Shown here one piece after another: positions 5,509 to 64,000 of a DNA stretch of 64,000 nucleotides. The notes beneath the pieces are model-generated. The model saw nothing but the letters and a program-made list of their open reading frames with translations. It was not told where the DNA came from and made no database searches. This DNA is from Symmachiella macrocystis. GTDB taxonomy: Bacteria > Planctomycetota > Planctomycetia > Planctomycetales > Planctomycetaceae. The stretch covers positions 3,755,490 through 3,819,489 of the forward strand of contig NZ_SJPP01000001.1 of assembly GCF_007860075.1 (NCBI RefSeq). The letters run 5' to 3'. How positions within the stretch are numbered: position 1 is the first letter of the stretch; every line of letters begins with the position of its first letter. The translations under genes and the position numbers were made by a program.

Positions 5509-6915
5509 GTGATACGCGATTTTACCAGCGAAAGCCTCTCCCACGACCCTCTGCACGGGTACATCCCCTTCATCGCCAAATCCGGTTTGCCGACGGGCGA
5601 AGTCGCCGAGCAAGAGATCATCGACCACCCGTGGGTGCAGCGACTGCGACAGATTCATCAATTGCAGACCGCGCGTTGGGTGTTTCCCTCAGCCGAACAC
5701 ACCCGTTTCCCGCACTCCTTAGGAGCCATGCACCTCGCATCGCAGACAATGGAGCGCTGGTATGATTCTTTATGCGAATCGTGCCCGGAGACGCCTTCGG
5801 CCGGATATGTGCATAGCTTGGTCCGTATGGCGGCACTGTTGCACGATGTGGGCCATGGCCCGTTCGGGCATTTTTTCGACGACCATTTTCTGTCACAGTT
5901 TTCGCTGACCCACGAAGATTTGGGTGTGGCGGTGATTGAACAGGAATTCGCCGAATTGCTCAAAAAAATCCGTCGTAGCCCGTTCGGCGCATTGGGAGAT
6001 GACGAACAACTCGACCCGGCGCACGTTGCCTGGCTCATACGCCGCCCGCGCCCCGATCACCCGCAAGACAACGACCACCCCTTGTGGTTGCGACATTTAC
6101 GAAGCCTGTTTAGCGGCATCTACACGGTCGACAACATGGATTTTGTGCTCCGCGACAGTTACATGTCCGGCTACAACACGCGAGCCTTCGATATCTCGCG
6201 ATTGATTCACTACAGCTTTTTCACCCCCGCCGGCCTGACCATCCATCCGCGGGGACTGCCGACGTTGATCAATTTTATCGAAGTCCGCGCGAATCTGTTT
6301 CGCACGATCTATTTTCATCGTGCAGTCCGCGGACTCGATGTCGCCCTGGAGGAGATCTTCACGGAAAGTATGCAGCAACTCTTCCCGGCCAATCCGCTGG
6401 ACGATCTGGACCGCTACCGGCGGTTTACGGAGTTTTCGCTGATGGTCGACGTCGAACGTTGGGGGGACGCCGCGGATGCGGACCTGCGACGGTTGGGGGA
6501 AAGTTGGCGGCGGCTCTTCCGGCGAGATGTCGCTTGGAAGGTTGCAGCGGAACGCATTCGTTATTTTCACGCCGGCCTGTCGGAACGGATGACAATTTTT
6601 TCCGAACCGGAGGTGTTGTTGCGCCGCGTCCGTGAAAAAATGCCGCCCGAGTCGCGCGACGCCAACCTGAAGATCGACGTCGCTCGTCACTACCATCGCC
6701 CGAGCACACGCTTACCCGCCGGTGGACAAAATTATCTCTTCAATCCCGCAACGGGCGAATCCCGCGAACTGGCCGACTCACAATTGTTTGCCGAAGTTCC
6801 ACTCAGCTCAGCGGTGTGTCGCATTTATGCCGATGATCGTCGACACCATGCCGCTGTCGATGCCGCTCTGAATAGCGTACTTGGCGATGCCGGTGACGCG
6901 CTGACCAATATGTGA
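5509..6915 (+). CDS. HD-domain phosphohydrolase (dNTPase-like)
   Basis: A protein of about 468 residues with the HD-superfamily metal-binding set: TRFPHSLGAMHLA (first His), ALLHDVGHGPFGHFF (HD pair plus helix) and VDNMDFVLRDSYMSG (late Asp). This arrangement is that of SAMHD1/dGTPase-like and YdhJ-type HD proteins, which cleave nucleotides or related phosphoesters; the exact substrate cannot be read. An in-frame ATG exists at 5470, but the GTG at 5509 has GGAG at 5494-5497 with an 11-base gap and places HDPLHGYIPF near the N-terminus as in relatives. The start choice is therefore likely but not certain. Confidence 0.85.
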   Translation: MIRDFTSESLSHDPLHGYIPFIAKSGLPTGEVAEQEIIDHPWVQRLRQIHQLQTARWVFPSAEHTRFPHSLGAMHLASQTMERWYDSLCESCPETPSAGYVHSLVRMAALLHDVGHGPFGHFFDDHFLSQFSLTHEDLGVAVIEQEFAELLKKIRRSPFGALGDDEQLDPAHVAWLIRRPRPDHPQDNDHPLWLRHLRSLFSGIYTVDNMDFVLRDSYMSGYNTRAFDISRLIHYSFFTPAGLTIHPRGLPTLINFIEVRANLFRTIYFHRAVRGLDVALEEIFTESMQQLFPANPLDDLDRYRRFTEFSLMVDVERWGDAADADLRRLGESWRRLFRRDVAWKVAAERIRYFHAGLSERMTIFSEPEVLLRRVREKMPPESRDANLKIDVARHYHRPSTRLPAGGQNYLFNPATGESRELADSQLFAEVPLSSAVCRIYADDRRHHAAVDAALNSVLGDAGDALTNM

Positions 6916-7609: not shown

Positions 7610-7999
7610 ATGAAAGTCAAAAACCTCATCGTGCTGGCGTCGTTGATTGTGTCGCTGACCGGGTGTGCGCATTTTGGCCAACAACACATCACGTGGACTG
7701 ACGTGCAGGAAACGGCCGTCGTGAAATTTCATGATGGAACCGCCTACAAGAATATCATTCGGATTCCGGTCACGGTCGAATGGATCGCCGGCGACTCGTT
7801 GCAGGTCTTGGATTTTGACGCCACGTATAAAAACAAGGTCATCGAAGTCACGGGCGAAATGAGACTCCCTGATGACCGCATTCCGGCGGAAAAAGAGCTC
7901 ATTGTCTACACCGACGGTTCACACCCCGATGTGATCACGATTGTCTACAAAAACCCCAACGGCGAGACCCAGGTCATTCAAGATATTGCCATCGAATGA
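7610..7999 (+). CDS. small lipoprotein, unknown function
   Basis: A 129-residue protein beginning MKVKNLIVLASLIVSLTGC, a lipoprotein signal with lipobox LTGC (acylated Cys about residue 19). The mature part is beta-rich with strands such as ETAVVKFHDGTAYKNIIRI and KELIVYTDGSHPDVITIVY and contains no catalytic motif I recognise. It should be anchored to a membrane on the periplasmic side. The frame is open from 7583, but the ATG at 7610 gives a clean signal peptide. It stands alone between two unrelated short genes. Confidence 0.7.
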   Translation: MKVKNLIVLASLIVSLTGCAHFGQQHITWTDVQETAVVKFHDGTAYKNIIRIPVTVEWIAGDSLQVLDFDATYKNKVIEVTGEMRLPDDRIPAEKELIVYTDGSHPDVITIVYKNPNGETQVIQDIAIE

Positions 8000-8199
8000 C
8001 ATGTCCGCCGTAATTCAGTCATCGCAGGGTGCACGGTTTTTGAGATAACGCGCGGTGCCGAATCCCGTCTTGCCGCAGTTGCCCGATTTTGAGAGAATCC
8101 GCCCCCTTTGCCGGACTGGGCTCGCTGCAGGGAACGCTTATGCCCGGCGGAGCATCACTGTTTTCAACGATCTGCTCATTGCATCAACGGACAAAACCT

Positions 8200-8532
8200 A
8201 TGCGCCGATTACTCGCCGTAGTATTTGGAGCCTTGATTGGCGGAGGACTAGTCTTTACCGCTTTTGAATATCATCTCGTCCGCACTGATGAGACGTATCA
8301 TTTGGTTCCCAAAAAGCAGGCGGGACTGACTGACGCTTATGTGGACATCCGCGATTGGCCGGCATCTCAGTGGAACGAACACACGACCTTGGCTGAGAAT
8401 ATGATTGCCGCCGGTCATGGTGATTTGGTTGGTGGATCGATCGCCAGCGGACTGCTAAACGACATCATCGCCCCATTCCAACAAGACGCCTCCGAAGCGA
8501 CTCAGCGTTGGTGGAATTCCGAACAAGAATAA
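8200..8532 (+). CDS. small single-pass membrane protein, unknown function
   Basis: A 110-residue protein with one N-terminal hydrophobic segment (RRLLAVVFGALIGGGLVFTA) followed by a soluble part that includes YVDIRDWPASQW and EHTTLAENMIAAG. No known family is recognised. The likely topology is a signal anchor with most of the chain outside the cytoplasm. The ORF is open upstream to 8089, but the ATG at 8200 puts two arginines directly before the hydrophobic core. Function unknown. Confidence 0.6.
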   Translation: MRRLLAVVFGALIGGGLVFTAFEYHLVRTDETYHLVPKKQAGLTDAYVDIRDWPASQWNEHTTLAENMIAAGHGDLVGGSIASGLLNDIIAPFQQDASEATQRWWNSEQE

Positions 8533-8661
8533 ACATCTAAAGCCGAATCATCCAGAATACGGATTCCCCGACCTCATCCGTTCTCTCCCCATCCGCGCAA
8601 GAAAAACCGTCCCTTCGTGACCTCTCTAAAAACCTCCCTCAGATCCTCGCCCCGGCTCCGC

Positions 8662-10353
8662 ATGACTGCAGCGCCGCGCGAAACGAATTTCGCGACTGTG
8701 CGATGCGGTGACACGCATTGGCAGATTCGTAGCGATCTGCAGCAGGAGTTGTTGGATGCCAACGGGTTGCGGCGGCGCGATTGGGAACAACAACAGCGGG
8801 TGGAAGTGATTAAGACCGGCGCCCATCGCGAAGTGATTTGCCTCGACACCGCGTCGGGACGGTTTTACATCAAACATTACAAAGTCGCCGGCGTAAAACC
8901 GTTTTTGCAAAACGTGATCCGCCCCGCCAAGGCGGTGTTGGAACAACGTATGGCGGCGCGGGTGCGAGCGCTTGGTATTCCGACGTTCGAGACGGTCGCT
9001 TGGGCGGAAACGCGCAGCGGCGGTTTTGTGTGGGACAACTATCTGATCACGCGAGAAATCCCCGGTACCCAGCCGCTCGATGGTTTCCTGCGCACGCAAT
9101 TTGCCGCAATGTCATCAGCCGCTGCATCCTCATTTCGCCGCAGACTGGCGGTGGAGCTGGGACGATTCACCGGAAAACTCCATGACGCCGGCATTGTCCA
9201 CCGAGATTTTCACGCGGGAAATATTCTGATCCGCGACCAACCGGCGGCGCCGGTTCAGTTGTGGCTCATCGACCTGCATTGCGCGCATATTCAAAAATCG
9301 TTGGGACTGGAAGCCGCGCAACAAAACTTGGCGATGCTGCACCAGTTCTTCGCCACCCGCACCACGCGAGCCGATCGATATCGGTTCTTTCGTGCCTATT
9401 GCGCACAGCGAGGACTTTCCGGTTCGGTCAAATCGCTGGCCCGTGATGTGCAAGCCTGTTGTTCGCGCCGCGCGCAGCGGCATTGGCGCCGAAAGGATCG
9501 CAAATGGCGGCAGGGGACACGGCATCTCGTCAAACTGCGCGTCGGCTCCCAACAGGGGCGCGGCTTGACGGTCTTGGGACGCGAAGTCCTGCGCGACATC
9601 TGCGCACAACCGGAGCACATCTTTGCCGCCGCCACAGCTTGGTACAAGCAATCACCGAAGCGCCGCGTGGCCGCTGTTGCCATTCCCACGATTCCTCAAT
9701 ACCCGCGTTTGTTTTGGAAAAGCCTGAAACTCCGCGGGATCCTGCCGCTGTTGTCACAATGGCTCGGACGATCGAGCGTGCGCCGCGCCTGGGAAAACGG
9801 ACACGCACTATTGCGGCGCGATATCGCCACCCCTAAACCACTGTTGTTTGTGGAATCGGCACAGGGGTTGGATGTGCGGCAATACCTGCTCACCGAATCG
9901 ATTCCCGACTCGACCACGCTGTTCGACTGGCATCACGATCACCTGGTGCGGCTTGAGCCGCGGCAACGACGCGCGATCGTTCGTCGCCTGACCGTCGCGT
10001 TGGCTGGCCAATTGAGATGGCTGCATACATGCGGCTTTGAACATCGTGATCTCAAATCCAAAAACATACTTGTGTCTCAAAACGAAAATGATGATCGCAC
10101 CTGGCTGCTCGATCTTGAGGCAATCCGCCGTTGGCCCCGCGTTCCACAGGACCGCATGCTGCAAAACCTGACACGGCTGAATGTTTCGTCGACCTTTCTG
10201 TCGGAAATCCAATTGAGCGACCGATTGAGATTCCTACGTAATTATCTTGGTTCGCGGTATTTCCATGAATGGAAATCGACTTGGCAAAAGATTGAGGCTC
10301 GAACTGGACGAAAAATTGATAAGAACCGTACAAACGGAAGACCGTTAAGTTGA
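8662..10353 (+). CDS. tandem Kdo/WaaP-type lipopolysaccharide kinase-like protein
   Basis: A protein of about 563 residues with two successive kinase-like domains of the Kdo/WaaP family. Domain 1 (about residues 50-265) has the lysine strand GRFYIKHYKV, the catalytic loop HDAGIVHRDFHAGNIL and the metal motif LIDLHCAH. Domain 2 (about residues 345-550) has LFWKSLKLRG, CGFEHRDLKSKNIL and WLLDLEAIRRW. Both keep HRD-like and D-L-H/E motifs, so both may be active. WaaP-type enzymes phosphorylate lipid-A core sugars at the cytoplasmic membrane face; the substrate here is not shown by context. The frame is open from a GTG at 8617; the ATG at 8662 is assumed. Confidence 0.82.
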   Translation: MTAAPRETNFATVRCGDTHWQIRSDLQQELLDANGLRRRDWEQQQRVEVIKTGAHREVICLDTASGRFYIKHYKVAGVKPFLQNVIRPAKAVLEQRMAARVRALGIPTFETVAWAETRSGGFVWDNYLITREIPGTQPLDGFLRTQFAAMSSAAASSFRRRLAVELGRFTGKLHDAGIVHRDFHAGNILIRDQPAAPVQLWLIDLHCAHIQKSLGLEAAQQNLAMLHQFFATRTTRADRYRFFRAYCAQRGLSGSVKSLARDVQACCSRRAQRHWRRKDRKWRQGTRHLVKLRVGSQQGRGLTVLGREVLRDICAQPEHIFAAATAWYKQSPKRRVAAVAIPTIPQYPRLFWKSLKLRGILPLLSQWLGRSSVRRAWENGHALLRRDIATPKPLLFVESAQGLDVRQYLLTESIPDSTTLFDWHHDHLVRLEPRQRRAIVRRLTVALAGQLRWLHTCGFEHRDLKSKNILVSQNENDDRTWLLDLEAIRRWPRVPQDRMLQNLTRLNVSSTFLSEIQLSDRLRFLRNYLGSRYFHEWKSTWQKIEARTGRKIDKNRTNGRPLS

Positions 10354-27225: not shown

Positions 27226-30200
27226 CTACTCAATCGTCCGTCGGTATTTCACAAATTTCCGGAAATCGAACCGACCACGCGATCCTGAAGTCCCTGGTGA
27301 ATACGCGTCATTTCCCAGCGGATCGGAAACGTCAACTACAAAAAATCCGCGATGTCCGGTTGAAGTCGTCGTTCCGCTAATTTGAGGCTGCCCAGGAGTC
27401 GGTTCAACCACCTCGAAAAAACCGACTTCTACAAACACGATATAGACGTGACTGCGTGTCGTGGCATGATTGGCAACCTTGGAGAGCAAGCGGTGTCGCA
27501 TGTAATAATCCGTAGAGGGGCTGGCGCTGCCGTCGTGCTGAGCTCTGGAGCCCACTTCGAACAAACGTCGCCCGGTTTGGTCAACACCGAAGTCATCACC
27601 GGGCAGTGACCGCAACAATGTGTCATTGATTGCCAGGCCGTCCCCAGCACCTAATTGTGCAAAATCACGGAACGGCCGCGATCCGGCCAGCCCCGGCAGA
27701 TATTCACCTGTAACCGGGTCACGCCCATTAGGGGCAACAGGCGTACCATCGGGCAACAGCACGGCGTCACGAGCGGCCAGGAACTCTCTCCACCAATCGC
27801 GTTGTCCGGGAATAACCGTGCTCGTACTATCTGTCGGATCCAGAGAGAGCAAATCGAGGCCATGCACACGCGGGCCGTCGATCATGGCGCCCAGTGGTCC
27901 CATGTGCCGAATCGTGTTCAGGTTGATTTTTCCCGGCACACGCCCCGGATCGCCGAGCAACTCGTGCATCCGCGTGGGAACTTCAACAAACTCAAACAAC
28001 CGGTACCAACGATTGTCGCCGACAACCGGCGCGTTGCTGGGGTTGTTGTCCAATTCGGGGAAGAGGAATTTTTCTTGTGCGATACGCCGCCGCGTACCGG
28101 CTGGGTCGCCCAATCCTGTGGGGTTGAAGCCCAAACGCAGTGGCAAGGTCATCGGCTGCGCAAGTTTTTGAATCACTTGGTCCGGACCGTACAACGGCAC
28201 CGACAGCAATTCCATGGCCGATGAATAATAGCGATCAAAATGCGGCTGCCACATTTGGAAGTTCGCGGGGGAGACCGAATTCATGGCGAGTCCGACCGAG
28301 TTGTAGCGGTTGTTCGGCGACGGCGCTGCGGTTGTGTTGGTGGGGAGCGGATTATCCTGAGCGAATGGCTCGACCCGTTCGCTGCTCTTCAACGTTTCCA
28401 ATCGACCGGGGATCTGCGGAGCGGTGTCGCCTTGTTCCAGTCCGAATAGCTTGAACTCAACGACGATGCGGTCCACTTCGATCCATTTGTTTCGGGAATC
28501 GTCCGGATTGGGATTCGGACCGGTGTCCTGCAAACCGGTGGAGGGATCCAAATTTTGGCGACGTTCTAAAACCAGCTCAAACTGGCTGATGTTTAGCGTG
28601 CCCAGAGAGGTCATCTGTGGGTTGAGAAAATCGCCGCGGAAATTCGGATCGGGTGTCGCCGGGTTCGGCGCCTCCCAAGCCAAGCTAAACCGGCCGTCGT
28701 CGTGGGAGCTGTGTGAAGTATCGAGATTGGAGAGCGGTCCGGGAAACATCGCTGGGTCGGCGACTGCAGTGGCATTGCCAATCCCAGTATCCGCGACGTT
28801 CGGACAGATCAAATCGTAATCACCATCTTGATCGAAATCGACGCGAAAATCGGCCGGGTGCTGATCGAGTTGGTTGGGGATGGGGAACGGGTTATCGCCG
28901 TCATTGATGGCGATCGTATACTGCCCACCCGCCGAAACGGTTCCCGCGCCGGACCCAAAAATCATGGCGTTTTCATTCGTCGCCCCTACATCGATCACAC
29001 CGTTGTCGAGACTGCCTTCATCATTTCGGCGAATCCGCCAAGTCCCGTCATTCAAGTCGACCTGATGCGGGCTGGCATTTCGCAGTTCGATGTGCAGGGA
29101 ATAGTGATCCTTGTTCAACTCGTCATGCAGCGTGGCGGTATGGTTGGACAGAATCTGTGGCTGCCGGATGCCCAAAACCTCGCTGAACGTCAATTGCTGG
29201 GCTTCGACGCCATAGACCTGCAGGCCGGCCCCTGGGCTCCAGCCATCGGAAAGATCGCCGTCGTATTCAAATCTTGTGATGACGTTATCCGCATCCATGC
29301 TGTCCACGTAGTTCACAGCAAACTGCGCCATCTCTTCTAACTGCTCGGCAGAATACTGAGGTGGACCGGCAGTGACATCGAAATCGGTTCCGCCGCCCAA
29401 CGTGTACAGCAAAACATAAATATCCCGAGCAAGACGCTGCCGGTCGTAACGTGCCCACCATTCTTGGGCCACTCCGTCTGCTGGGTAGGTACCAAAGGGA
29501 TACGGCAGCGCTGCATTGTAGTCGCCGCTGGAGATATTACTTTGTGTCATCGGTGCCAGGTTCTGATGCACCATTGGTTGAATCTGCGCGCCACCCGCGG
29601 TGGGGTTGGTCGGATGCGGCGTCAAATCTCGATAGATCGGTGTGCCATCGGTATCGAACCCAACCAAGATCTGGTTCAAGCTCAACCGGCCTTGCCGCCA
29701 ATCGTCGCGGGAGCTGGGATCGGTGTTTGCTGGGTCCGGGATCTCAATCGTCAGCAGCCGCCGCACCTCGGGACGAAAAGGATCCAACGGGCTAGCGGTG
29801 CCCTCTTCATGGCGCGATGGGGGGACTGGCGTCCCGAAAGGATCTCCGAATTGCGGTGGAAACCTGTTGAAGTCGACGGTCACATCGTCGTTGAATTCCC
29901 AAGGCCGAGCCACTGCCGGTGCTGCCGTCGGGTCGCCGATTGCCCGGCCGAAACGTCGCATATCCCAGCTTGACGTGGTAAATTGCTTACGCAAGTCGGC
30001 ATTGACTGTTGCCCCTAATGTGATTGGCAGCAGTTCTTTCAATCGTGAATTCACCAAATTGGCATCTGGGTCGTTGTCGCTCTTATGCAACCCCGCCATC
30101 TCCTCCACCGAAAATGCGGCGTCGCGACTGGCCAGTCCTAGGATGTCTTCATTTCCCGGCAACACAAACATCTCGTCCGCTTCGTCCCGTTGGAAGGTGG

Positions 30201-36327: not shown

Positions 36328-37296
36328 TTAGTTGCCGGCGGCGGAGTTATTCAAATTGCTAATGTTGTCGTACAGGTTTTCAAAATTCGCGGGATCGATA
36401 GCGTTGCCGGGCGTCTGTTCATAATTTGCCAGGTTCCCAAAATTCGACGTATCGGTCGGTTCATACAAACCGAGAACTCCATCTTCGCCAACAGAGATCA
36501 CCAACGGCACGTTGTAGGTGCTCGGTGTCAAGTAGGCGCTTTCAAACTGGTCCGGATCATTCGAAGCGGCCATCGCATCGTACGGGTCGTTGGCGTCTTT
36601 GACCGCATTCGCCGCCGTCAGTGAAGGGATGATCACCTGGGCATTGGCCAGCTGAGCGGCGGTTATGGTCGCACCTGCACCATCTGGCCGAACCAGCCGT
36701 GTCGGCCAGCGATAAAACCGGAAGGGATTTCCCCAACCGTCGACGAATTCCAACAGTCCGTCGCCATCGATGTCAGAGGTGTCGGAGCTATTGAATTCAT
36801 CCGCTTGGACCTGCCCCACGCCGGAGATAACTTTGCGTCGACCCCTGCCGGGAATCGGCCCCTCGGTGAGAATGTAGTACAGCACCTCCGCACTTTCGGT
36901 GGCGGGGGTGAATGTGTTCGATCCGTATTTGCTCGTGATTTCGGTAACTAATTCCGGGAACAGAGTGTCAAACTCGGCCCAAGTCTGCGGAAAGGCTTCC
37001 AGCATGGCGATTTTGCGGGCGACGACTTTCTTCTCGTTGCTACGTTGGAAGCCATCGTTTTCCGCCAGGAGTTCATATTGCTCATAGTCCAATTCGGCGA
37101 GCGTCTGGATGCGGTCCTTGATGCGTCCGTTGATCTTGGTCAAGGTCGCCGACGTGGCAGCGGTCCGTGCATTGCCCATCACGGCGCCGATCACTCCGAT
37201 CGCCAGCGCAGCTAAGAGTGAAATAATCACCAGCACGACCAACAGCTCAATGAGCGTGAATCCGCGCCGTCGCTTATGAGGAATATCGCTTGTCAT
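36328..37296 (-). CDS. GspG-like pseudopilin, second copy
   Basis: A 322-residue protein (GspG is usually about 145). The prepilin leader is [20 protein letters not shown], followed by AALAIGVIGAVMGNARTAATS. A calcium-loop-like DIDGDGLLEFVDGWGNPFR lies about residues 170-190, which recalls the W-G-N-P region of GspG. With the gene upstream it makes a tandem pair of major-pseudopilin-like proteins; which one polymerises cannot be told by eye. The spacing to both neighbours is 41-47 bases, consistent with one operon. Confidence 0.8.
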   Translation of the reverse strand: MTSDIPHKRRRGFTLIELLVVLVIISLLAALAIGVIGAVMGNARTAATSATLTKINGRIKDRIQTLAELDYEQYELLAENDGFQRSNEKKVVARKIAMLEAFPQTWAEFDTLFPELVTEITSKYGSNTFTPATESAEVLYYILTEGPIPGRGRRKVISGVGQVQADEFNSSDTSDIDGDGLLEFVDGWGNPFRFYRWPTRLVRPDGAGATITAAQLANAQVIIPSLTAANAVKDANDPYDAMAASNDPDQFESAYLTPSTYNVPLVISVGEDGVLGLYEPTDTSNFGNLANYEQTPGNAIDPANFENLYDNISNLNNSAAGN

Positions 37297-37337
37297 GAGT
37301 CCCGATTGCTCCCAGGGTCTCGTTACGAAAAGTACAC

Positions 37338-38291
37338 TTACGGTCGTAGCTCGGCCGGTGCAAAATTGGTGATGTTGTCGCGGTCATTTACGTCAATATG
37401 TCCGGCAGTGCCGTCGTGAGCGGTGTCGTCGATTTCGTAAGACCCACCGGCTCCGTAACTGGTGTCAAATCCCGGCGAGATGATTTGAAAGGTCTTCTCC
37501 TTGTAGTAACTGCGTGCCGAATCCCCCTGCTTATACGCGCGGGGCAACAACACGGCGGGCAGAGGCGGCGACAAGGCGGCGAACTCATTATCATCGTGAG
37601 CGCGGTAGTTGTCATTGTGGATGTAGTAGTAGGGTGTTGTTTGTCCAGCCAACGTATCCACGTATTCGGGAATCCCCAGCACGCCCAATCCATCCAAGCC
37701 CTCGTCAGCACTGGCGTTTTGGTTGTCCTGAACTCGCGAAGCGGAAAACTCTAGGAATGGTCCCTCGCGGGATTCACCTGTTCCCAAAAACGGTGCGGCG
37801 GGATTTTTAGAAAAACCAAGTAGTCGCGGCGGACTCGAGCCTGGTTCAATCACCCCACCCAGGAAGAACATCAAACATTCAGCGCCGTTCAACACATACG
37901 GTCCCGTTCTGGCTCCGTTGTCCCAATCGACCGTGCCGGTGAAAGCAAACTGTGGCCACATCGTTTTGATCTGCGTCACGCTTTTAATGCGAATGCTGTC
38001 CCGAACCGGGTCGGCATCGGCGACAAGATAGTCGGCCAAATCTTCATAGAGCACAAACCGACTGGGGGGTTCGACGCCGTACGAAGTTTTAAAAGCAGTG
38101 ATCGAATTTTCCAGCTGCGAGATTTCCTGTCGCACTTGAGCAATACGCGCGTTTTGCATAACGCCCATCACCACCGGCACCAAGAGTCCGACGAGGATGG
38201 CGATGATCACAATCACAATCAACAATTCAATAAGCGTAAAGCCGCGGCGAGCCTGTTGCGGCGAATTCCGTCGGCGAAGGGGATAGTGCAT
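37338..38291 (-). CDS. gspG: GspG-like pseudopilin, first copy
   Basis: A 317-residue protein with the prepilin leader [20 protein letters not shown], then VPVVMGVMQNARIAQVRQEI. The downstream helix and SITAFKTSYGVEPPSRFVLY follow the GspG plan (alpha1, then a W/P-rich turn), but the chain is about twice the normal length. DTSYGAGGSYEIDDTAHDG near the C-terminus could be the calcium loop of GspG. It is the first pseudopilin after gspF. Confidence 0.82.
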   Translation of the reverse strand: MHYPLRRRNSPQQARRGFTLIELLIVIVIIAILVGLLVPVVMGVMQNARIAQVRQEISQLENSITAFKTSYGVEPPSRFVLYEDLADYLVADADPVRDSIRIKSVTQIKTMWPQFAFTGTVDWDNGARTGPYVLNGAECLMFFLGGVIEPGSSPPRLLGFSKNPAAPFLGTGESREGPFLEFSASRVQDNQNASADEGLDGLGVLGIPEYVDTLAGQTTPYYYIHNDNYRAHDDNEFAALSPPLPAVLLPRAYKQGDSARSYYKEKTFQIISPGFDTSYGAGGSYEIDDTAHDGTAGHIDVNDRDNITNFAPAELRP

Positions 38292-38507
38292 GACGTTCTG
38301 GCTCCAAGCTAGTGCTGGATAAGGCTGATGTGTTCAGAAAATCGCGGTTCAAAAAATTGCCGCCACTCCCGGTCGGGCTACGAAAACCTCGCCGTGATTT
38401 GGGTGAGGAGTCTCCGCCGTAGCCGCGAGGGGATGAGCAGGCCCGCTGGATAAACATTCAATTGTTGAGGTGATAAAGTTTCGCGTCCGTGCCGCCGACA
38501 TGAAGAA

Positions 38508-39752
38508 TCATGCCAGGTCGTTCAGCAGTTTGATTAACGGCATGAACAAGGCGATGACAATAAATCCGACGATGAAACCAAGCACGACGACCATTAACGG
38601 TTCGAGCAAACTGATCATGCCGTCGACCAAAATCTTGACTTCCTCATCGTAGGTGTCGGCGATCTTGTAGAGCATGACGTCCAACGCACCGGTTTCCTCA
38701 CCGACGTCGACCATATTCACCACCATGTCGTCGACAATGCGGGCCTCCTTGAGCGGCACCGCCATCGATTCCCCTTCGCGAATCGCCACATAGATGTTTT
38801 GAAACGCTTTGACGAACACTGCATTGCCCGAAGTATCGCGGGCAATGATCAAGGCTTCGAGAATCGGCACCCCGGAAGCAATCAACGTTCCCAAAGTCCG
38901 GCAGGTCCGTCCGGTGGTGGACTTGGAAACGATTTTGCCTAAGACGGGAATCTTCAACAGCATGTAGTCCAAGATATACTCGCCCGTCTTGTTTTTTCTG
39001 ATGATTTTATTCATCAGCCAAAGCGCGAATGGAACCGCAGGGAACAGATAAAAATAGTTCACCACGAATTCGCTCATGGTGATCAACATAATGGTGATGC
39101 CGGGGAGTTCTGTATCGAAGTCTTCAAAGATTTTTGCGAACTTCGGAATGATCCAATACATGATGAAGCCGACGATCAACGTGGCGACTAAAATCACCAT
39201 CACCGGATAAATCATGGCCCCTTGGACAGTCCGCTTCAGGCTTTGAGCGCGTTCCTTAAAGTCGGCCAAGCGTTGCAAAATGATTTCCAAGGCACCCGAG
39301 GCTTCACCCGCCTTGACCATGTTGACGTACAGGTTGTCGAAGGCTTTGGGGTTTTTGGACATCGCTTCGGATAGCGTGTTTCCCGACTCGACATCCTCAA
39401 TCACGTTCATCAACGTGTTTTTCAAGACACCCGGTTTGGACTGCCCTTCCAAAATTCTCAAGCTCCGCAAAATCGGCAAGCCGGCATCTTGCAGTGTCGA
39501 GAGTTGACGGGTGAAGGTGCAAAGTTTTTTGGGTTTGATTTTACCAAGTGTGAAGGCACGCTTCTTGCCGTCACCACGCCGTTTGGTCGCCGTTTTGGTC
39601 GCTTTTTTACGGCCCGTTTCTGTGATTTTGGTGACGAGTAGACCTTTTTCCCGGATCAGGCTCTGCGCTTCAGCCTCCGAGGGAGCATCAATGGTGTCCG
39701 TGACTTCGGCACCCGTCTTATGGTCCATCGCCTCAAACTGAAATTTTGGCAT
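38508..39752 (-). CDS. gspF: type II secretion / pilus inner-membrane platform protein GspF
   Basis: A 414-residue membrane protein with two T2SSF domains (about residues 75-200 and 280-405). Signatures include FTRQLSTLQDAGLPILRSLR, LKRTVQGAMIYPVMVILVAT and RTLGTLIASGVPILEALI. It has three hydrophobic helices and interacts with the GspE ATPase to drive pseudopilus assembly. The N-terminal MPKFQFEAMDHKTG is the usual PilC/GspF start, fixed at 39752; the frame opens at 39782. A Lys-rich linker (about 55-75) is longer than usual. Confidence 0.94.
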   Translation of the reverse strand: MPKFQFEAMDHKTGAEVTDTIDAPSEAEAQSLIREKGLLVTKITETGRKKATKTATKRRGDGKKRAFTLGKIKPKKLCTFTRQLSTLQDAGLPILRSLRILEGQSKPGVLKNTLMNVIEDVESGNTLSEAMSKNPKAFDNLYVNMVKAGEASGALEIILQRLADFKERAQSLKRTVQGAMIYPVMVILVATLIVGFIMYWIIPKFAKIFEDFDTELPGITIMLITMSEFVVNYFYLFPAVPFALWLMNKIIRKNKTGEYILDYMLLKIPVLGKIVSKSTTGRTCRTLGTLIASGVPILEALIIARDTSGNAVFVKAFQNIYVAIREGESMAVPLKEARIVDDMVVNMVDVGEETGALDVMLYKIADTYDEEVKILVDGMISLLEPLMVVVLGFIVGFIVIALFMPLIKLLNDLA

Positions 39753-57519: not shown

Positions 57520-58203
57520 CTACACACCGCATCGCCCGGCGAGGGTCCAGTGGCGATCGGTCGTTTGCACGCACCATTGTGCCGGTAGACCCGCAGTGCT
57601 CAGCAGCGATTTGACCTCTGCAACCGTCAGCGCCGCACGCAACGATTGTCGAAAGAGTTGCCGTTGCTCGTCGTTGGTGTCTGCCGCATAGGTGCTAACT
57701 AACTGCTCCAGTTCCGCTTCGTCATCCGGACGCAGCAGGTCGCGGACGAAGAGCACTCCTCCCGAGCGAACCACGCGGGCCATTTCGACGATCACCTGCA
57801 AGGGATCGGGAATGTGGTGCACTATGCTGTTGGATATCACAGCGTCGAACGTTTCCGTGGCATAGGGGAGTTGTTTCGCGTCGACGCGTTCGAGCATGAT
57901 GTTCTGCGTGAAACCGGCTGCAGCGACGTTTTGCCGGCCGACTTTGAGCATTTCATCAGCGAGGTCGACACCAGTGACGTGAATCGGAAGCTGCCGCCGG
58001 CTCAATTCCACGGGAATCTGCGCGGTCCCGGTGCCAACGTCCAAAACTCGCAGCTCTGTGACGGACGGATTCTCAAACTGTGCGAATGCCAACAGATCAT
58101 CAACGAAAACGCGATTGACGTCCGTATGGTCCATTGTGTCGTAGTCGATGGCTTCCTGGGCGGAGTCCATGACTTCCGGTTCGAGAATGCGCTGCAGCGG
58201 CAT
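57520..58203 (-). CDS. class I SAM-dependent methyltransferase
   Basis: A 227-residue Rossmann methyltransferase. Motif I is VLDVGTGTAQIPVELSRR (SAM binding), the acidic end of beta2 is HVTGVDLADEML, and motif IV/post-I is DAVISNSIVHHIPDP. The N-terminal start PLQRILEPEVMDSAQEAIDY with NRVFVDDLLAF is a pattern common in planctomycetes. A UbiE/COQ5-like or other small-molecule role is likely; the substrate is unknown. The ATG at 58203 follows the clpC terminator, so it may be transcribed from its own promoter. Confidence 0.85.
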   Translation of the reverse strand: MPLQRILEPEVMDSAQEAIDYDTMDHTDVNRVFVDDLLAFAQFENPSVTELRVLDVGTGTAQIPVELSRRQLPIHVTGVDLADEMLKVGRQNVAAAGFTQNIMLERVDAKQLPYATETFDAVISNSIVHHIPDPLQVIVEMARVVRSGGVLFVRDLLRPDDEAELEQLVSTYAADTNDEQRQLFRQSLRAALTVAEVKSLLSTAGLPAQWCVQTTDRHWTLAGRCGV

Positions 58204-58253
58204 TGCCGGATCCTTATGGAAACAAGGGAGTGGGAACCAAAGGGAATAAAAAA

Positions 58254-58280
58254 ACGCCCCGGTTGCAAGGACCGGAGCGT
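58254..58280 (-). terminator. rho-independent terminator of clpC
   Basis: ACGCCCCGGT (58254-58263) pairs with ACCGGAGCGT (58271-58280), ten pairs with one mismatch and a seven-base loop. On the minus strand a T run follows (A run at 58247-58254). It lies 30 bases past the clpC stop. Confidence 0.85.
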
Positions 58281-58309
58281 TTCTTGTTTATTCGCGAGAG
58301 ACTCGCGTC

Positions 58310-60847
58310 TTACGATTCTTCGGACTCGCCGCTGTTTTCGTCCTCGGAACCAACCGCAGCCATTTCGGGTTCAGCCGATTCTTCGAACGAGGCGTCGAAG
58401 TCGAGTTGCTTGGTATCGCCGACTTCTTTAACGCGAACGGTGATCGTGTTTTTGCCTTCGAAGGCGTCGCGGAGCAACTCTTCGGAAAGCGGATCTTCAA
58501 TAAAGGTTTCGATGCAGCGACGTAGTGGGCGGGCACCGTAATCGATGTCCGACGCACCCTTGTCGATGATCAGTTCTTTGCTTTCGTCGGTCAGAATCAG
58601 ATTCAGGCCTCGTTCTCCAAGACGTTCGTAGACCTTCTCCAATTCGATGTCGATGATCAGCTTCAAGTTCTCGCGGTCGAGATGCTTGAACACGATGACG
58701 TCATCCACACGGCCTAAGAACTCCGGCTTGAATTCATCTTCGATTTCGTGCATCAGACGGCGTTTCATACCATCGTAGCTGTGATCGAGGTCCTTCTTGA
58801 CGAAACCAAATTCGCTGCCGGATTGAATCACCTTGGCACCGGCGTTGGTGGTCATGATCAAGATCACGTTTTTGAAATCGACTTTGCGACCGAAACTATC
58901 GGTGAGGTGTCCCTCTTCCATAATTTGCAGTAGCATATTGAACACGTCGGGGTGCGCTTTTTCGATTTCGTCCAACAGCACCACGGCGTAGGGGCGGCGG
59001 CGGATTTTTTCCGTCAGTTGGCCCCCTTCTTCGTAGCCGACGTAACCAGGAGGGGCACCGATCAAACGGCTGACGTTGTGTTTCTCCATGTACTCACTCA
59101 TGTCGATTTGAATGAGCGATTCGGCATCGCCGAACATGAATTCCGCCAACGTTTTGGCCAGTAATGTTTTTCCAACACCCGTCGGACCGGCGAACAGGAA
59201 GACACCCGTAGGACGCCGCGGATCCTTCAACCCGCTACGACTACGACGGACCGCCTTGGCGACCTGTTTAATGGCTTCTTCCTGGCTGATGACCTTCTTG
59301 TGCAGTTCATCTTCCATTTGCAGCAACCGCACCGCATCTTCGCTCGACAACCGTGTGAGCGGGATGCCGGTCATTTTGGCGACGACTTCGGCGATCACAT
59401 CGTTGTCGACGACACCGTCGGTTTCGCGGGATTTCTCACGCCAATCGCGGGTCAAGGACTCTTTCTTCTTCTTCAGCTTGTCGGCTTGATCACGCAAGCT
59501 GGCCGCTTTTTCGAAGTCTTGATTGGCGACCGCTTCTTCTTTGGCTTGATTCAGGCCTTCGATTTCTTCATCGAGTTCCTTCAAATCGGGCGGGCGGACC
59601 ATCGATTTGAGGCGGATACGAGCACCCGCTTCGTCGATGACGTCGATCGCCTTATCCGGCAGGCAACGGCCGGTGATGTAACGGTTGGACAGTTCCACAG
59701 CCGCTTCCAACGAGTCGTCGGTGATTTGCACGCGATGGTGCGATTCGTACCGATCCCGCAAGCCGCGGAGGATTTCCACAGTCTCTGTCGCACTGGGCGG
59801 TTCGACCATCACGGTCTGGAACCGGCGTTCCAGGGCGCCATCTTTTTCGATGTATTTGCGGTACTCGTCGAGCGTAGTGGCTCCGATGCACTGCAATTCG
59901 CCCCGGCTCAGTGCGGGTTTGAGCACGTTGGAGGCATCAATCGCCCCTTCCGCGCCACCGGCGCCCACCAGAGTGTGCAATTCGTCGATGAACAAGATCG
60001 TGTTTTTGGCACGACGCACTTCGTTCATGACTGCTTTGATGCGTTCTTCGAATTGACCGCGATATTTGGTTCCAGCGACCATCATCGCCAAGTCCAGCAC
60101 GACAATCCGGCGGTCCCGCAGCAAGTCGGGAACGTTGTTATCGATGACCATTTGGGCAAAGCCCTCGACAATGGCCGTCTTACCCACGCCCGCTTCACCC
60201 AGCAAGACCGGGTTGTTCTTTTGGCGACGACAGAGGATCTGGATCACCCGTTCGATTTCATCGGTACGACCGATCACCGGATCGAGTTTGCCCTGTTTGG
60301 CCAATTCGGTCAGATCGCGGCCGAAGCTATCCAATGCGGGCGTTTTGCTTTTGCCCGCTTTGGGACTTCCAGCGGCGGGACTGCGTTCGCCCGATTCGGC
60401 GCCTTCCAGTCCGTGGCCGAGCAAGTTCAACACTTCCTCGCGAACATCTTCTAGCTTCAGGCCAAGGTTCATCAACACCTGAGCGGCCACGCCTTCTTGT
60501 TCGCGGAGCAAGCCCAACAGAATGTGTTCAGTGCCGACGTAATTGTGATTCAGGTTACGGGCTTCTTCCATCGAGTATTCGATGACTTTTTTGGCCCGTG
60601 GGGTTTGCGGCAATTTGCCCATCGTCACCATATCGGGACCAGATTGGACGATCTTTTCGACCTCCAAACGGATTTTTCTCAGGTCGACGTCCAGGTTTTT
60701 CAGGACATTGGCGGCGACGCCGGAGCCTTCCTTGACTAGTCCCAACAGAATGTGTTCCGTGCCGATATATTCGTGATTGAACCGCTGCGCCTCCTGGTTG
60801 GCGAGTTGCATCACTTTTCGGGCTCGGTCGGTAAATCGCTCGTACAT
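58310..60847 (-). CDS. clpC: ClpC-type AAA+ protease ATPase
   Basis: An 845-residue Hsp100 unfoldase. The N-domain has two Clp-N repeats ([19 protein letters not shown], then [12 protein letters not shown]); NBD1 has [15 protein letters not shown]; the linker carries a UVR-like region ([20 protein letters not shown]); NBD2 has [17 protein letters not shown]. ClpC unfolds substrates and feeds them to ClpP. The C-terminal tail is acidic ([12 protein letters not shown]). AGGGAG sits nine bases before the ATG. No mcsA/mcsB/ctsR genes are adjacent; the gene is divergent from a ClpN-ThiE fusion. Confidence 0.96.
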
Positions 60848-61584
60848 GCGAGGTTCTCCCTAAATCTTGCGAGGGTGCAAGACAATTTCTCAAACGCTGA
60901 CTACCGCGCTTGCTCTATAATTTAAAACCGATGTTTCAGTCTTCTTCAATCCGCCATCACACTTCTTAAATGCCGATCGCAACGCTCGTAACAATTTTTC
61001 TACGATCCGTGCCTTCCGCAGGATGACGGTCACTTAACAATACTTCACGTTTCGATGTGTGAACGGGTTTCCGTTCCGCAACATCAAAGTTCCCGAGACT
61101 GCGGGAATCGCAGACGTTACTACCGGGAAAGTTGATTGGGTTTCCACAGTCTCCCGTGATATCCTGATTCGTGGAGGCGGTATTTTCGTTCCCACAGAAC
61201 CGAAAAGATCAACAGAAACGGCAGGTCCAACTTTCACGGTCCTTGGAAAAGCCGCAACCTCACAATTCGATTACCCTTTCGGTACAATGTATGGTCAGAG
61301 GCCGCTGTTTGAACAAACCCAAACTCACCCGGCTGCAAAGTCTTCCTCATCCATTGAAATTATCAGGATATACCGCGAATTCTAGTGACCGTTCGCGCCG
61401 ATGGCAAGACGTGCCGAGAGGCGGAGCCTGTTAAGCAGCGGCGAGTGCATGACTTGCAAAGAATGTCCTGCGTTGGAAGACACCTTTGCCAGGCTTGAAA
61501 GTGGTCATCCTGCTCTGAACTGTCTCGACAATAAACTAATCCCTTTGGACTTCGCCTATTCGGCCCCAAAGCCGCACACCCAAA
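60848..61584. other. 737-base divergent intergenic region between clpC and the thiamine fusion gene
   Basis: No convincing gene. It contains a candidate clpC promoter (60921-60949). No THI-box (TPP riboswitch) signature is visible upstream of the thiamine gene. Short ORFs at 61059-61385 and 61034-61237 have no recognisable similarity and no ribosome sites. Confidence 0.55.
60921..60949 (-). promoter_or_regulatory. possible sigma70-type promoter of clpC
   Basis: Minus-strand TTGAAG at 60944-60949 and TTTAAA at 60921-60926 with a 17-base spacer, about 75 bases upstream of the clpC ATG. Each hexamer matches four of six positions. No CIRCE or CtsR-type repeat is seen. Confidence 0.35.
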
Positions 61585-63129
61585 ATGCAACAACCGTTGA
61601 CTCCCGCTGCCCAAAGAGTTCTAGACCGGGCGACCGAAATTGCCACAACCGGCCAATCGTCAGCCGTGGCTCCGCGGCATCTATTACGTAGCCTTTTACT
61701 GGAAGAATCACGTGCCAGCGAGATTTTGGGCGGGTTCGATGTGGAGATTTCCACAGTGGAGACGGTTTTCCCTGACGAGAAGAGCGTCCCTCCCGTGGAG
61801 ACAACCGTCGAGTCCGCACTGACCGAGACCGTTCCTTTTGATGAACCGTCCGCATGGGCCATTCAGGAAGCGCGGCATCTTGCGGGCATTCAAGGACGTC
61901 ACAGTGAAGTCGGGACCGAACATCTGCTGTGGGGGTTGTTGGTTGTTGACTCCGATGTCTCGGCTTGGCTCCGCGAACAAGGGGTGCAGCGCGAAGAGCT
62001 CACGCAACTCGTGGATGAGAAAACAGGATTTTCCGCTGCGCCGCTTGAAACCGACGTCAGGATCGAATTCTCACAGCCAAACGTTTCACAACGTCACAAC
62101 GCGATGCGAATCATCGATGCCGCCGCCAACCGCGCTCGCGAAGGGGTACGTGTGGTCGAGGATTACGTCCGTTTCATCAGCGACGATGCGCATTTGTCTG
62201 CGCTGCTCAAAAGTTGGCGACACGATTTCGCGGCGGCAATTTCCGCAATCGCGCCGCACGACTTGGCTGCGGCGCGGGATACCCTGTCGGACGTGGGAAC
62301 GACGATTTCCACAACCGCCGAAGCGCAGCGAGATTCCGCCGCGGAAGTCCTGCAGGCGAATTTGAAACGCGTGCAGGAAGCGGTGCGGACGTTGGAGGAG
62401 TATGGCAAGATCCTCGCTGCGGACTTGGGCGGCCAATTCGAACAACTCCGCTATCGGTTTTATACGCTAGAAAAATCGATCTTATCGACGCTTCACAATC
62501 AAGCACGGTTGGCTGGCCGCAATTTGTATTTGCTGGTCAGCGAAGCGCTATGTCATCACGGCAGTGGACCGGCGATTCGCGAGGCGCTTGCTGGGGGGGT
62601 GAGCATTGTGCAGCTACGCGAAAAGGAAATGCCCGATCGTCAATTGGTCGAATTCGGCCGTCGCGTCCGCCAATGGACGCGCGAAGCGGGAGCCCTCTAT
62701 ATCATGAACGACCGTCCCGATTTGGCCGTACTCACCGATGCCGATGGCGTGCATGTCGGCCAGGAGGAACTATCGCTCAAAGACGCCCGGCGGATTGTGG
62801 GGACGGAGAAACTCGTCGGCGTTTCGACGCACACCATCGAACAAGCGCGGCAAGCCGTGGTGGAGGGTGCCGATTACATCGGCGTCGGTCCCGTGTTTTC
62901 CAGCACGACGAAACAGTTCACGGATCTGGCGGGACTGGAATTCGTCCGCCAAGTTGCCGCGGAGATCACCCTGCCCTGGTACGCCATCGGCGGCATCACA
63001 GCGGATAACATCGCCCAAGTAGCAGAAGCCGGCGCCACGCGAGTCGCCGTCAGCAGCGCCGTCTGCTCCAAGGAAAACAGCCAAACGGCCGCCTCGCAGT
63101 TAATGACAGCATTATCGAACAATCGCTAG
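61585..63129 (+). CDS. thiE: Clp-N-like domain fused to ThiD2 and thiamine-phosphate synthase ThiE
   Basis: A 514-residue fusion. Residues 3-147 hold two Clp-N-like repeats: LTPAAQRVLDRATEIATTG, and WAIQEARHLAGIQGRHSEVG followed by TEHLLWGLL. Residues 170-300 match ThiD2 (NAMRIIDAAANRAREGVRVV, then DYVRFISDD), a monofunctional HMP-phosphate kinase domain known in ThiE fusions. Residues 310-510 are ThiE: IVQLREKEMPDRQ, IMNDRPDLA, GVHVGQEELS, ADYIGVGPVFSSTTK and WYAIGGIT. It joins HMP-PP and thiazole phosphate into thiamine phosphate. It faces clpC head-to-head; the role of the Clp-N part is unknown. Confidence 0.88.
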   Translation: MQQPLTPAAQRVLDRATEIATTGQSSAVAPRHLLRSLLLEESRASEILGGFDVEISTVETVFPDEKSVPPVETTVESALTETVPFDEPSAWAIQEARHLAGIQGRHSEVGTEHLLWGLLVVDSDVSAWLREQGVQREELTQLVDEKTGFSAAPLETDVRIEFSQPNVSQRHNAMRIIDAAANRAREGVRVVEDYVRFISDDAHLSALLKSWRHDFAAAISAIAPHDLAAARDTLSDVGTTISTTAEAQRDSAAEVLQANLKRVQEAVRTLEEYGKILAADLGGQFEQLRYRFYTLEKSILSTLHNQARLAGRNLYLLVSEALCHHGSGPAIREALAGGVSIVQLREKEMPDRQLVEFGRRVRQWTREAGALYIMNDRPDLAVLTDADGVHVGQEELSLKDARRIVGTEKLVGVSTHTIEQARQAVVEGADYIGVGPVFSSTTKQFTDLAGLEFVRQVAAEITLPWYAIGGITADNIAQVAEAGATRVAVSSAVCSKENSQTAASQLMTALSNNR

Positions 63130-63284
63130 CATTCAATTGAAGTTAATCCTTGTCGGGCTGACTCAAAACGGATCTTTATGCGAGTTGGATTTGTGGTGAA
63201 TGTTTGCGTGTTTCACAGATTCTTGCGAGACTCCTACCTGAAAAGAATCGGGAATGCCCCATCTGCTTATCTCCATCTGCTCCT

Positions 63285-63752
63285 TCACTCCAACCCGTTT
63301 TGAAAACGCCGAGCCGCATCTTGAAGAAGCATTTTTTCAATTCTTCCATCTGGATATAGAACAAACGTCATTCCGTTGTCGTCAACCAATTCAAAATACG
63401 CCAGAATTGTAGGACGTTTAGCATTACCCTGCTCGGTTTTTAGTACAGATAGGTCTGTTTTTACCGTTTGCGACAACCGACGAGCCTCGGATTCATGAAA
63501 TAGGACGTCGCCGTATCGGCTGCTGACAACGTGAAGATTTGCAAGATCGTTAAATGCGACTGGAAATTCTTCTCGTTCTTTTTTGTAGGCAAGAATTGAT
63601 TCGTATAAGAATTGCAAATCATATTCTCGGTAGTCGCCAATTACCTGCCCTTTTTTATGGCGAAGAGCTGGCTGGAGCAAAAGCACGAAAACCACCGTTG
63701 TCACTACGTAAATAGATCCTGACAAAAGCCTTTTTGTAGTTGTCGGCTTCAT
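63285..63752 (-). CDS. single-pass membrane protein, unknown function
   Basis: A 155-residue protein with a basic N-terminus (MKPTTTKRLLSG), one hydrophobic segment (SIYVVTTVVFVLLLQPALR) and a soluble part likely outside the cytoplasm (YDLQFLYESILAYKKEREEF, then FELVDDNGMTFVLYPDG). No family is recognised. Its ATG lies 45 bases downstream of the stop codon of the GYF_2 gene on the same strand, so the two may form an operon. The ribosome site is weak. Confidence 0.6.
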   Translation of the reverse strand: MKPTTTKRLLSGSIYVVTTVVFVLLLQPALRHKKGQVIGDYREYDLQFLYESILAYKKEREEFPVAFNDLANLHVVSSRYGDVLFHESEARRLSQTVKTDLSVLKTEQGNAKRPTILAYFELVDDNGMTFVLYPDGRIEKMLLQDAARRFQNGLE

Positions 63753-63797
63753 TTATTTATCTGGACCTGACTTGAGCATAGGCCAGTCGCCTCACGC

Positions 63798-64000
63798 CTA
63801 CTTCGCCGGCGGTGGTGGTGGCGGAGGAGTCGCGGCGAATTGCGAGGCGAGTGCTGGGACTTGTCCGGCGGTGGTCCAGGCGGGCATGCCGGCAGACCAG
63901 ACCATCGAATCGGCTGTGACTTGTCCAGCAGCAATGCCTTGGGACAGTTGCTGTGCCGTGAAGGGGCCTTGTGTTTCGCCACCCACCGCAATGTGCCAAG
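63798..64000 (-). CDS. GYF_2 (DUF4339) domain protein, partial at the window edge
   Basis: The last 67 residues of a longer protein; the 5' part lies outside the window. The visible part is a GYF_2/DUF4339 domain: W-H-I-A-V-G-G-E, then QGPFTAQQLSQGIAAGQVTA and WSAGMPAWTTAGQVPAL, with a Pro-rich tail (TPPPPPPPAK). This domain is often the C-terminal tail of planctomycete membrane proteins such as SPFH-like or zinc-ribbon proteins, but the main domain cannot be known here. Confidence 0.8.
   Translation of the reverse strand, partial: WHIAVGGETQGPFTAQQLSQGIAAGQVTADSMVWSAGMPAWTTAGQVPALASQFAATPPPPPPPAK

Follow-up and report, generated by a model that had tools for sequence, protein, structure and literature searches.

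What a Clp-type N-terminal domain does on a vitamin-making enzyme is the question raised by one gene in a 64,000-nucleotide stretch of the Symmachiella macrocystis genome (contig NZ_SJPP01000001.1, positions 3,755,490 to 3,819,489; hereafter the window, in whose positions coordinates are given unless a genome or locus is named). The original prediction, made from the letters alone, held that its product (P0001) carries two Clp-N-like repeats followed by ThiD2 and ThiE, and that the fusion could tie thiamine synthesis to proteolysis. Profile searches bore out the domain order. In Pfam, the whole protein scored 41.2 bits against Clp_N (PF02861; cut-off 20.7), 139.5 bits against ThiD2 (PF17792; cut-off 23.5) and 201.8 bits against TMP-TENI/ThiE (PF02581; cut-off 27), and the NCBIfam ThiE model TIGR00693 gave 192.8 bits against a cut-off of 145.1. 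Behind the N-terminal domain (N-domain) just ThiD2 and ThiE were found by Pfam, and the AAA+ modules of the ClpC unfoldase are absent. The NCBIfam model of the bifunctional ThiD2-ThiE synthase, NF002727, likewise passed its cut-off (387.9 vs. 335 bits), matching residues 167-513 only; this part has the same ThiD2-ThiE order as L019 and L006, two proteins that lack the N-domain, and the double Clp_N is an N-terminal addition outside the NCBIfam match. These results demonstrated that P0001 is a three-part enzyme, in which a Clp N-terminal-type domain without an AAA+ ring is followed by ThiD2 and ThiE, laid out as follows.

61585..63129, + strand: gene of the Clp_N-ThiD2-ThiE fusion protein P0001, 514 amino acids, ATG start (open reading frame, Pfam, NCBIfam, relatives)
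61585..61767, + strand: Clp_N repeat 1, residues 1-61 (structure model, alignments)
61768..61842, + strand: variable inter-repeat linker, residues 62-86 (predicted local distance difference test, pLDDT; rate of nonsynonymous substitution, dN)
61843..62025, + strand: Clp_N repeat 2, residues 87-147 (Pfam match at 105-145, model helices)
62026..62082, + strand: probable flexible linker before ThiD2, residues 148-166 (drop in pLDDT)
62107..62475, + strand: ThiD2 domain of the hydroxymethylpyrimidine (HMP)-phosphate kinase family, residues 175-297 (PF17792)
62524..63063, + strand: ThiE domain, thiamine phosphate synthase, residues 314-493 (PF02581)

The Clp_N match of P0001 comprised two stretches at E ≤ 1, one of them at E ≤ 0.01, the best being residues 105-145. 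A genome-wide Clp_N search matched three genes, namely clpC and clpB with two repeats each and the fusion gene, of which repeat 2 alone scored 31.7 bits, above the cut-off; repeat 1 by itself gave no match in this search and was weak alone in P0001. Both repeats were recovered when a profile of 46 fusion N-domains was used, which spanned the whole ClpC N-domain (chain 3pxi, E = 1.9e-25). Supportively, the structure model showed two four-helix repeats, with predicted helices at residues 7-22, 30-39, 43-50 and 55-61 in repeat 1 and 87-103, 111-120, 124-131 and 136-147 in repeat 2, and a Clp-type fold of the N-domain is thus shown by prediction. The VGTEHLLWGLL motif, residues 109-119, lies within repeat 2. 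Between the repeats, block means of pLDDT were 57-80 over residues 61-80, and the dN of this linker was the highest among the segments tested. The block mean dropped to 60 at residues 151-160, and the linker joining the N-domain to ThiD2 is probably flexible in the model. Because the predicted template modelling score of the whole model was 0.70 despite a mean pLDDT of 93.3, the model suggests that the N-domain is loosely placed relative to the enzyme.

The fusion is widely present in the class to which the organism belongs. P0001 found matches in 56 of the 59 genomes searched, its own genome counted, and an N-region was present in 47 of 57 collected proteins, only 42 of which (42/57) reached Pfam Clp_N at E ≤ 0.01. 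The alignments behind these comparisons omit L008 (own copy), L007 (not a ThiD2-ThiE protein) and L066 (fragment) from A1 and L045 (long frame extension) from A2. Across a class sample of 198 genomes, at least 124 had an N-domain match outside ClpC and ClpB, in frames of at most 838 amino acids, a count of the N-domain matches listed, in which ThiE was not checked genome by genome. When the N-domain and ThiE coordinates of 294 genomes sampled from the phylum were matched by eye, 18 of the 21 class members carried the N-domain and ThiE on one gene among the matches listed; the three members without it all belong to family f5, in which it is also absent from 4/4 genomes of the 59-genome sample. 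Among the matches listed for the 273 phylum genomes outside the class, no N-domain coincided in place with ThiE. Nine of these genomes, with an N-domain match in a short frame and a ThiE place not among the matches listed, were checked singly, and none had the fusion, with ThiE elsewhere in seven and no ThiE match in two. Similarly, no fusion was seen in 20 outside-class ThiE loci with frames above 450 amino acids, drawn from 22 such loci among those listed (G076 and G215 left out), and ThiD2-ThiE genes without the N-domain exist there. The survey was of the phylum, with genome contigs covered by a single pattern scan, in which the nearest named locus was L006 (a Planctomycetales metagenome-assembled genome, MAG), at 47% identity. 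In one outside-class genome, G149, two adjacent frames of 271 and 403 amino acids (C141:6175-7424), away from its ThiE genes, match the Clp N-domain profile and may be a Clp_N gene that stands alone or is broken. Among the open-licence papers listed by literature searches, no title or abstract opening described a Clp_N-ThiD2-ThiE fusion, which may be recorded elsewhere.

In one pair, this genome against its near relative G001, the N-domain had a ratio of nonsynonymous to synonymous substitution of 0.17, compared with 0.07 in ThiD2 and 0.085 in ThiE, which demonstrated that the fusion is under purifying selection. In a three-group tree, the N-domains of the fusions (47), ClpC (34) and ClpB (21) each formed one group, and the fusion group was single in 98% of 200 bootstrap trees, with long branches and a bootstrap not fully settled. 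On a ThiD2-ThiE tree of 56 rows, from which the fragment L064 was omitted, the presence and absence of the domain needs six changes, or four if only well-supported branches are counted. No remnant of the domain above 7 bits was detected in frames of at least 50 codons at the 10 loci of proteins lacking it, neighbouring ClpC aside. The trees thus support one gain of the domain that would have been followed by several losses. The fusion is real, old and retained by selection. Both outcomes that the original prediction had named as refuting it, no Clp_N match, or absence from every relative with mis-assembly as the cause, are contradicted, by the Clp_N match and by the fusion in most of the relatives examined. 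A mis-assembly, a wrong frame or a chance similarity could in principle produce such a gene. Nothing was found in favour of this; as dozens of separate genomes, including several single-contig ones, share the architecture, and given the purifying selection and the confident model, we consider an artefact practically negligible.

Full-length canonical ThiD (PF08543, E < 1e-70) was found in 7/59 genomes and not in this one (96.6% complete), where only a partial PF08543 match of 43.6 bits was detected. ThiD2 is reported to phosphorylate HMP phosphate and not HMP (PMC12345177). From these two points, P0001 would probably be the cell's only HMP-phosphate kinase, as well as its ThiE. Enzyme columns such as R345, K347, N375, D376, S414, T415 and K443, which may be catalytic, are nearly invariant in the alignment. 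Genome G041 (family f6) has Clp_N fused directly to ThiE without ThiD2 (L065:5366-6490); no further ThiD2 match was found in this genome at E ≤ 1e-5, and its ThiD is of the canonical type. The domain searches mark G041 as a natural exchange of the HMP-phosphate kinase, in which, in this one genome, the N-domain appears to go with ThiE rather than with ThiD2. A different arrangement was observed in L007, a Chthonomonadales MAG, where a canonical ThiD-ThiE fusion lies beside a second ThiE-like open reading frame (7922-9373 and 5977-6642).

The neighbouring gene is clpC, adjacent and divergent as predicted, and the following features complete the locus.

60848..61584, no strand: intergenic spacer of the divergent pair clpC and fusion gene, 737 bp
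58310..60847, - strand: clpC, 845 amino acids (P0002; Pfam Clp_N 121.2 bits and AAA domains)
about 60407-60847, - strand: double Clp_N domain of clpC (Pfam)

The 737-bp spacer is 89% identical to that of G001 along its whole length and patchy in G002. A riboswitch or heat-shock operator shared by both genes was considered and rejected: no Rfam match at E ≤ 0.1 was found in 58000-64000, and no site like CIRCE (controlling inverted repeat of chaperone expression) was found in the window with up to 3 mismatches. Head-to-head linkage within 3 kb was observed in 21 of the 55 genomes with both genes, in 15/46 with the domain and 6/9 without it, all lower bounds owing to contig breaks. By these counts, clpC linkage and the fusion do not go together, and the fusion has no need of a linked clpC. 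Outside the class, no head-to-head pair was seen among the coordinates listed, compared by eye. The nearest approach there was in G238, contig C2, with ThiD2-ThiE at 27387-28418 and clpC at 36667-39090, ~8 kb apart on the same strand.

Several comparisons bear on whether the domain was copied in part from the clpC gene next to it, whose likeness to repeat 2 the original prediction pointed out. The VGTEHLL match to ClpC is present, but the genome's ClpB has a near twin, VSTEHLL, and so the likeness is not specific to ClpC. The P0001 N-domain is as close to the genome's ClpB (35/148 identical) as to its ClpC (35/145), and the repeat-2 loop is ClpB-like, one residue shorter, with a gap in 46/47 fusions and 21/21 ClpB where the residue is present in 34/34 ClpC. 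The ClpB profile scored higher than the ClpC profile for 44/47 fusion N-domains, in a test biased by a very narrow ClpC set (effective number of sequences 1.26); the ClpC N-domains compared, 34 distinct and nearly full-length sequences more than 55% identical to that of P0002, are nearly frozen at 83-100% identity to it. In the reverse search the two came out level, at a median of 69 bits for ClpB and 71 bits for ClpC, and the three-group tree, being unrooted, does not locate an origin. A copy of clpC would suit the head-to-head position, and ClpC chains ranked first in the PDB search, though in a near tie (~81 bits for single ClpC1 N-domains, 77 bits for mycobacterial ClpB). Position 11 is likewise basic as in ClpC, being R in 47/47 fusions, K in 33 and R in 1 of 34 ClpC, and in the 21 ClpB sequences acidic (E/D) in 18 and Q in 3. 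Some families have the domain without the linkage and others the reverse. Taken together, identity, loop, profiles and linkage do not support clpC, its neighbour, as the donor or as a partner gene that the fusion requires, the special tie to it that the original prediction suggested is not borne out, and a copy of clpC appears rather improbable; because the narrow ClpC profile biases the forward test and the reverse search ties, the profile tests favour neither a ClpC nor a ClpB origin.

Clp N-domains are reported to dock adaptors, peptides and phosphoarginine, with E32 (site pArg2) and E106 plus T7 (site pArg1) of ClpC mattering for phosphoarginine, and R9 and K85 holding the N-domain in the resting assembly through the M-domain of the neighbouring subunit and the AAA1 domain, respectively (PMC12583610); the sites are described as conserved in actinobacteria (PMC9604228), and one of the two as partly conserved in ClpB (PMC10149685). 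P0001 has T6 and E112 at the T7 and E106 positions, and R31 instead of a glutamate at the E32 position. Among the 47 fusions, the T7 position is T in 37 and S in 10 and the E106 position E in 33 and D in 6; the pArg2 glutamate is found in 6/47, R at the R9 position in 0/47, and the K85 position is K in 4 and R in 11. The near-invariant polar positions are T/S6, R11, E/D41 (E41 in P0001) and T/S111, each in 47/47, and E/D112 in 39/47; the invariant R11 and the acid at 41 set the fusions apart from ClpC and ClpB alike. The pArg1 positions are also T and E in 21/21 ClpB sequences from this class, and therefore the pair is no mark of phosphoarginine reading, which was rejected as a conclusion from T6 and E112 conservation since the pattern is not specific. 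An arginine-kinase-family gene (PF00217, guanido-kinase) was found in 58/59 genomes, here at G000:C1:1322304-1322903, and from its family and length would be McsB. Being nearly universal, it makes arginine phosphorylation likely in the sampled genomes, and speaks neither for nor against a link to ClpCP.

The best overall explanation, which we favour tentatively and at slightly less than even confidence, is that the N-domain is a docking or binding module on the thiamine enzyme. ThiD2 and ThiE would make thiamine phosphate, with the N-domain tethered by the probably flexible linker as a non-catalytic binding module serving ThiE; it would dock a protein partner or peptide, and docking would determine how stable the enzyme is, where it lies or how it assembles. 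Docking is the likeliest mechanism because adaptors, peptides and phosphoarginine are what Clp N-domains dock, and the loss of R9, the M-domain contact of ClpC to its neighbouring subunit, is counted in its favour. Also counted for this reading are the fold, the conservation of the fusion, the selection on it, its single origin, the Clp_N-ThiE protein of G041 and the polar positions retained despite deep divergence. The fusion N-domain differs from those of ClpC (PDB 3pxi, 5hbn, 6pbs) and ClpB, to each of which it is ~22% identical, in having no AAA+ ring, from ClpB also in its attachment to a metabolic enzyme, and from ClpC in mostly lacking the pArg2 glutamate and in keeping K/R at the K85 position in only 15/47. 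ClpS was rejected as a general docking partner, being absent from this genome and present in 31/59 genomes (two copies in ten) independently of the N-domain (23/47 genomes with it, 6/9 without; Fisher p = 0.47). Several findings weigh against a docking module. The N-domain is absent in 9/56 genomes with ThiE, in one of which a contig end interrupts the gene, and so is not essential to the enzyme; the fusion N-domains diverge fast, with a median pairwise identity of 25%; and the conserved T6 and E112 occur in ClpB too and may be structural.

The same fast change, the class members that keep the enzyme without the domain and the ThiD2-ThiE genes that do without it outside the class would also suit a structural add-on for folding, solubility, oligomerisation or ThiD2/ThiE channelling with no Clp-related binding. 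The near-invariant polar positions argue against it, as does the low-confidence linker, which suggests that the domain is not packed on the enzyme; and in G041, with no ThiD2, the domain is not needed for such channelling. We regard this alternative as distinctly less probable than docking. Slightly less probable still is the link to ClpCP proteolysis that the original prediction proposed, in which the N-domain would read phosphoarginine or McsB-type adaptors or act as a decoy: a role of this kind is possible, but the sequence checks were neutral or negative, in that the pArg2 glutamate is rarely retained, the T and E pair is shared with ClpB, clpC linkage is uncoupled from the domain, and the N-domain diverges fast against a nearly frozen ClpC counterpart. 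A single-pocket phospho-ligand reader, formed by T/S6, T/S111, E112 and perhaps R11, that would set ThiE activity or turnover via proteins arginine-phosphorylated by a McsB-type kinase or via a phosphorylated thiamine intermediate is an improbable reading; if true, a Clp N-domain would have become a sensor through which protein quality control and the making of vitamin B1 are coupled throughout a bacterial class.

Unfoldases and a few Clp regulators are the known carriers of Clp N-domains, which serve them for docking. Mycobacterial ClpC2 and plant ClpT1/ClpT2 are Clp_N proteins without an AAA+ ring that have the fold in common with the fusion N-domain; they are regulators of the Clp system, whereas here the domain sits on a vitamin-making enzyme and is retained by selection across a bacterial class. 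The natural variants, in which the domain is absent or ThiD2 is gone and the domain kept, make the question of its role directly testable, and the identity of the partner would reveal either that proteostasis acts on cofactor supply by a new route or that a well-studied drug-target fold has a new use.
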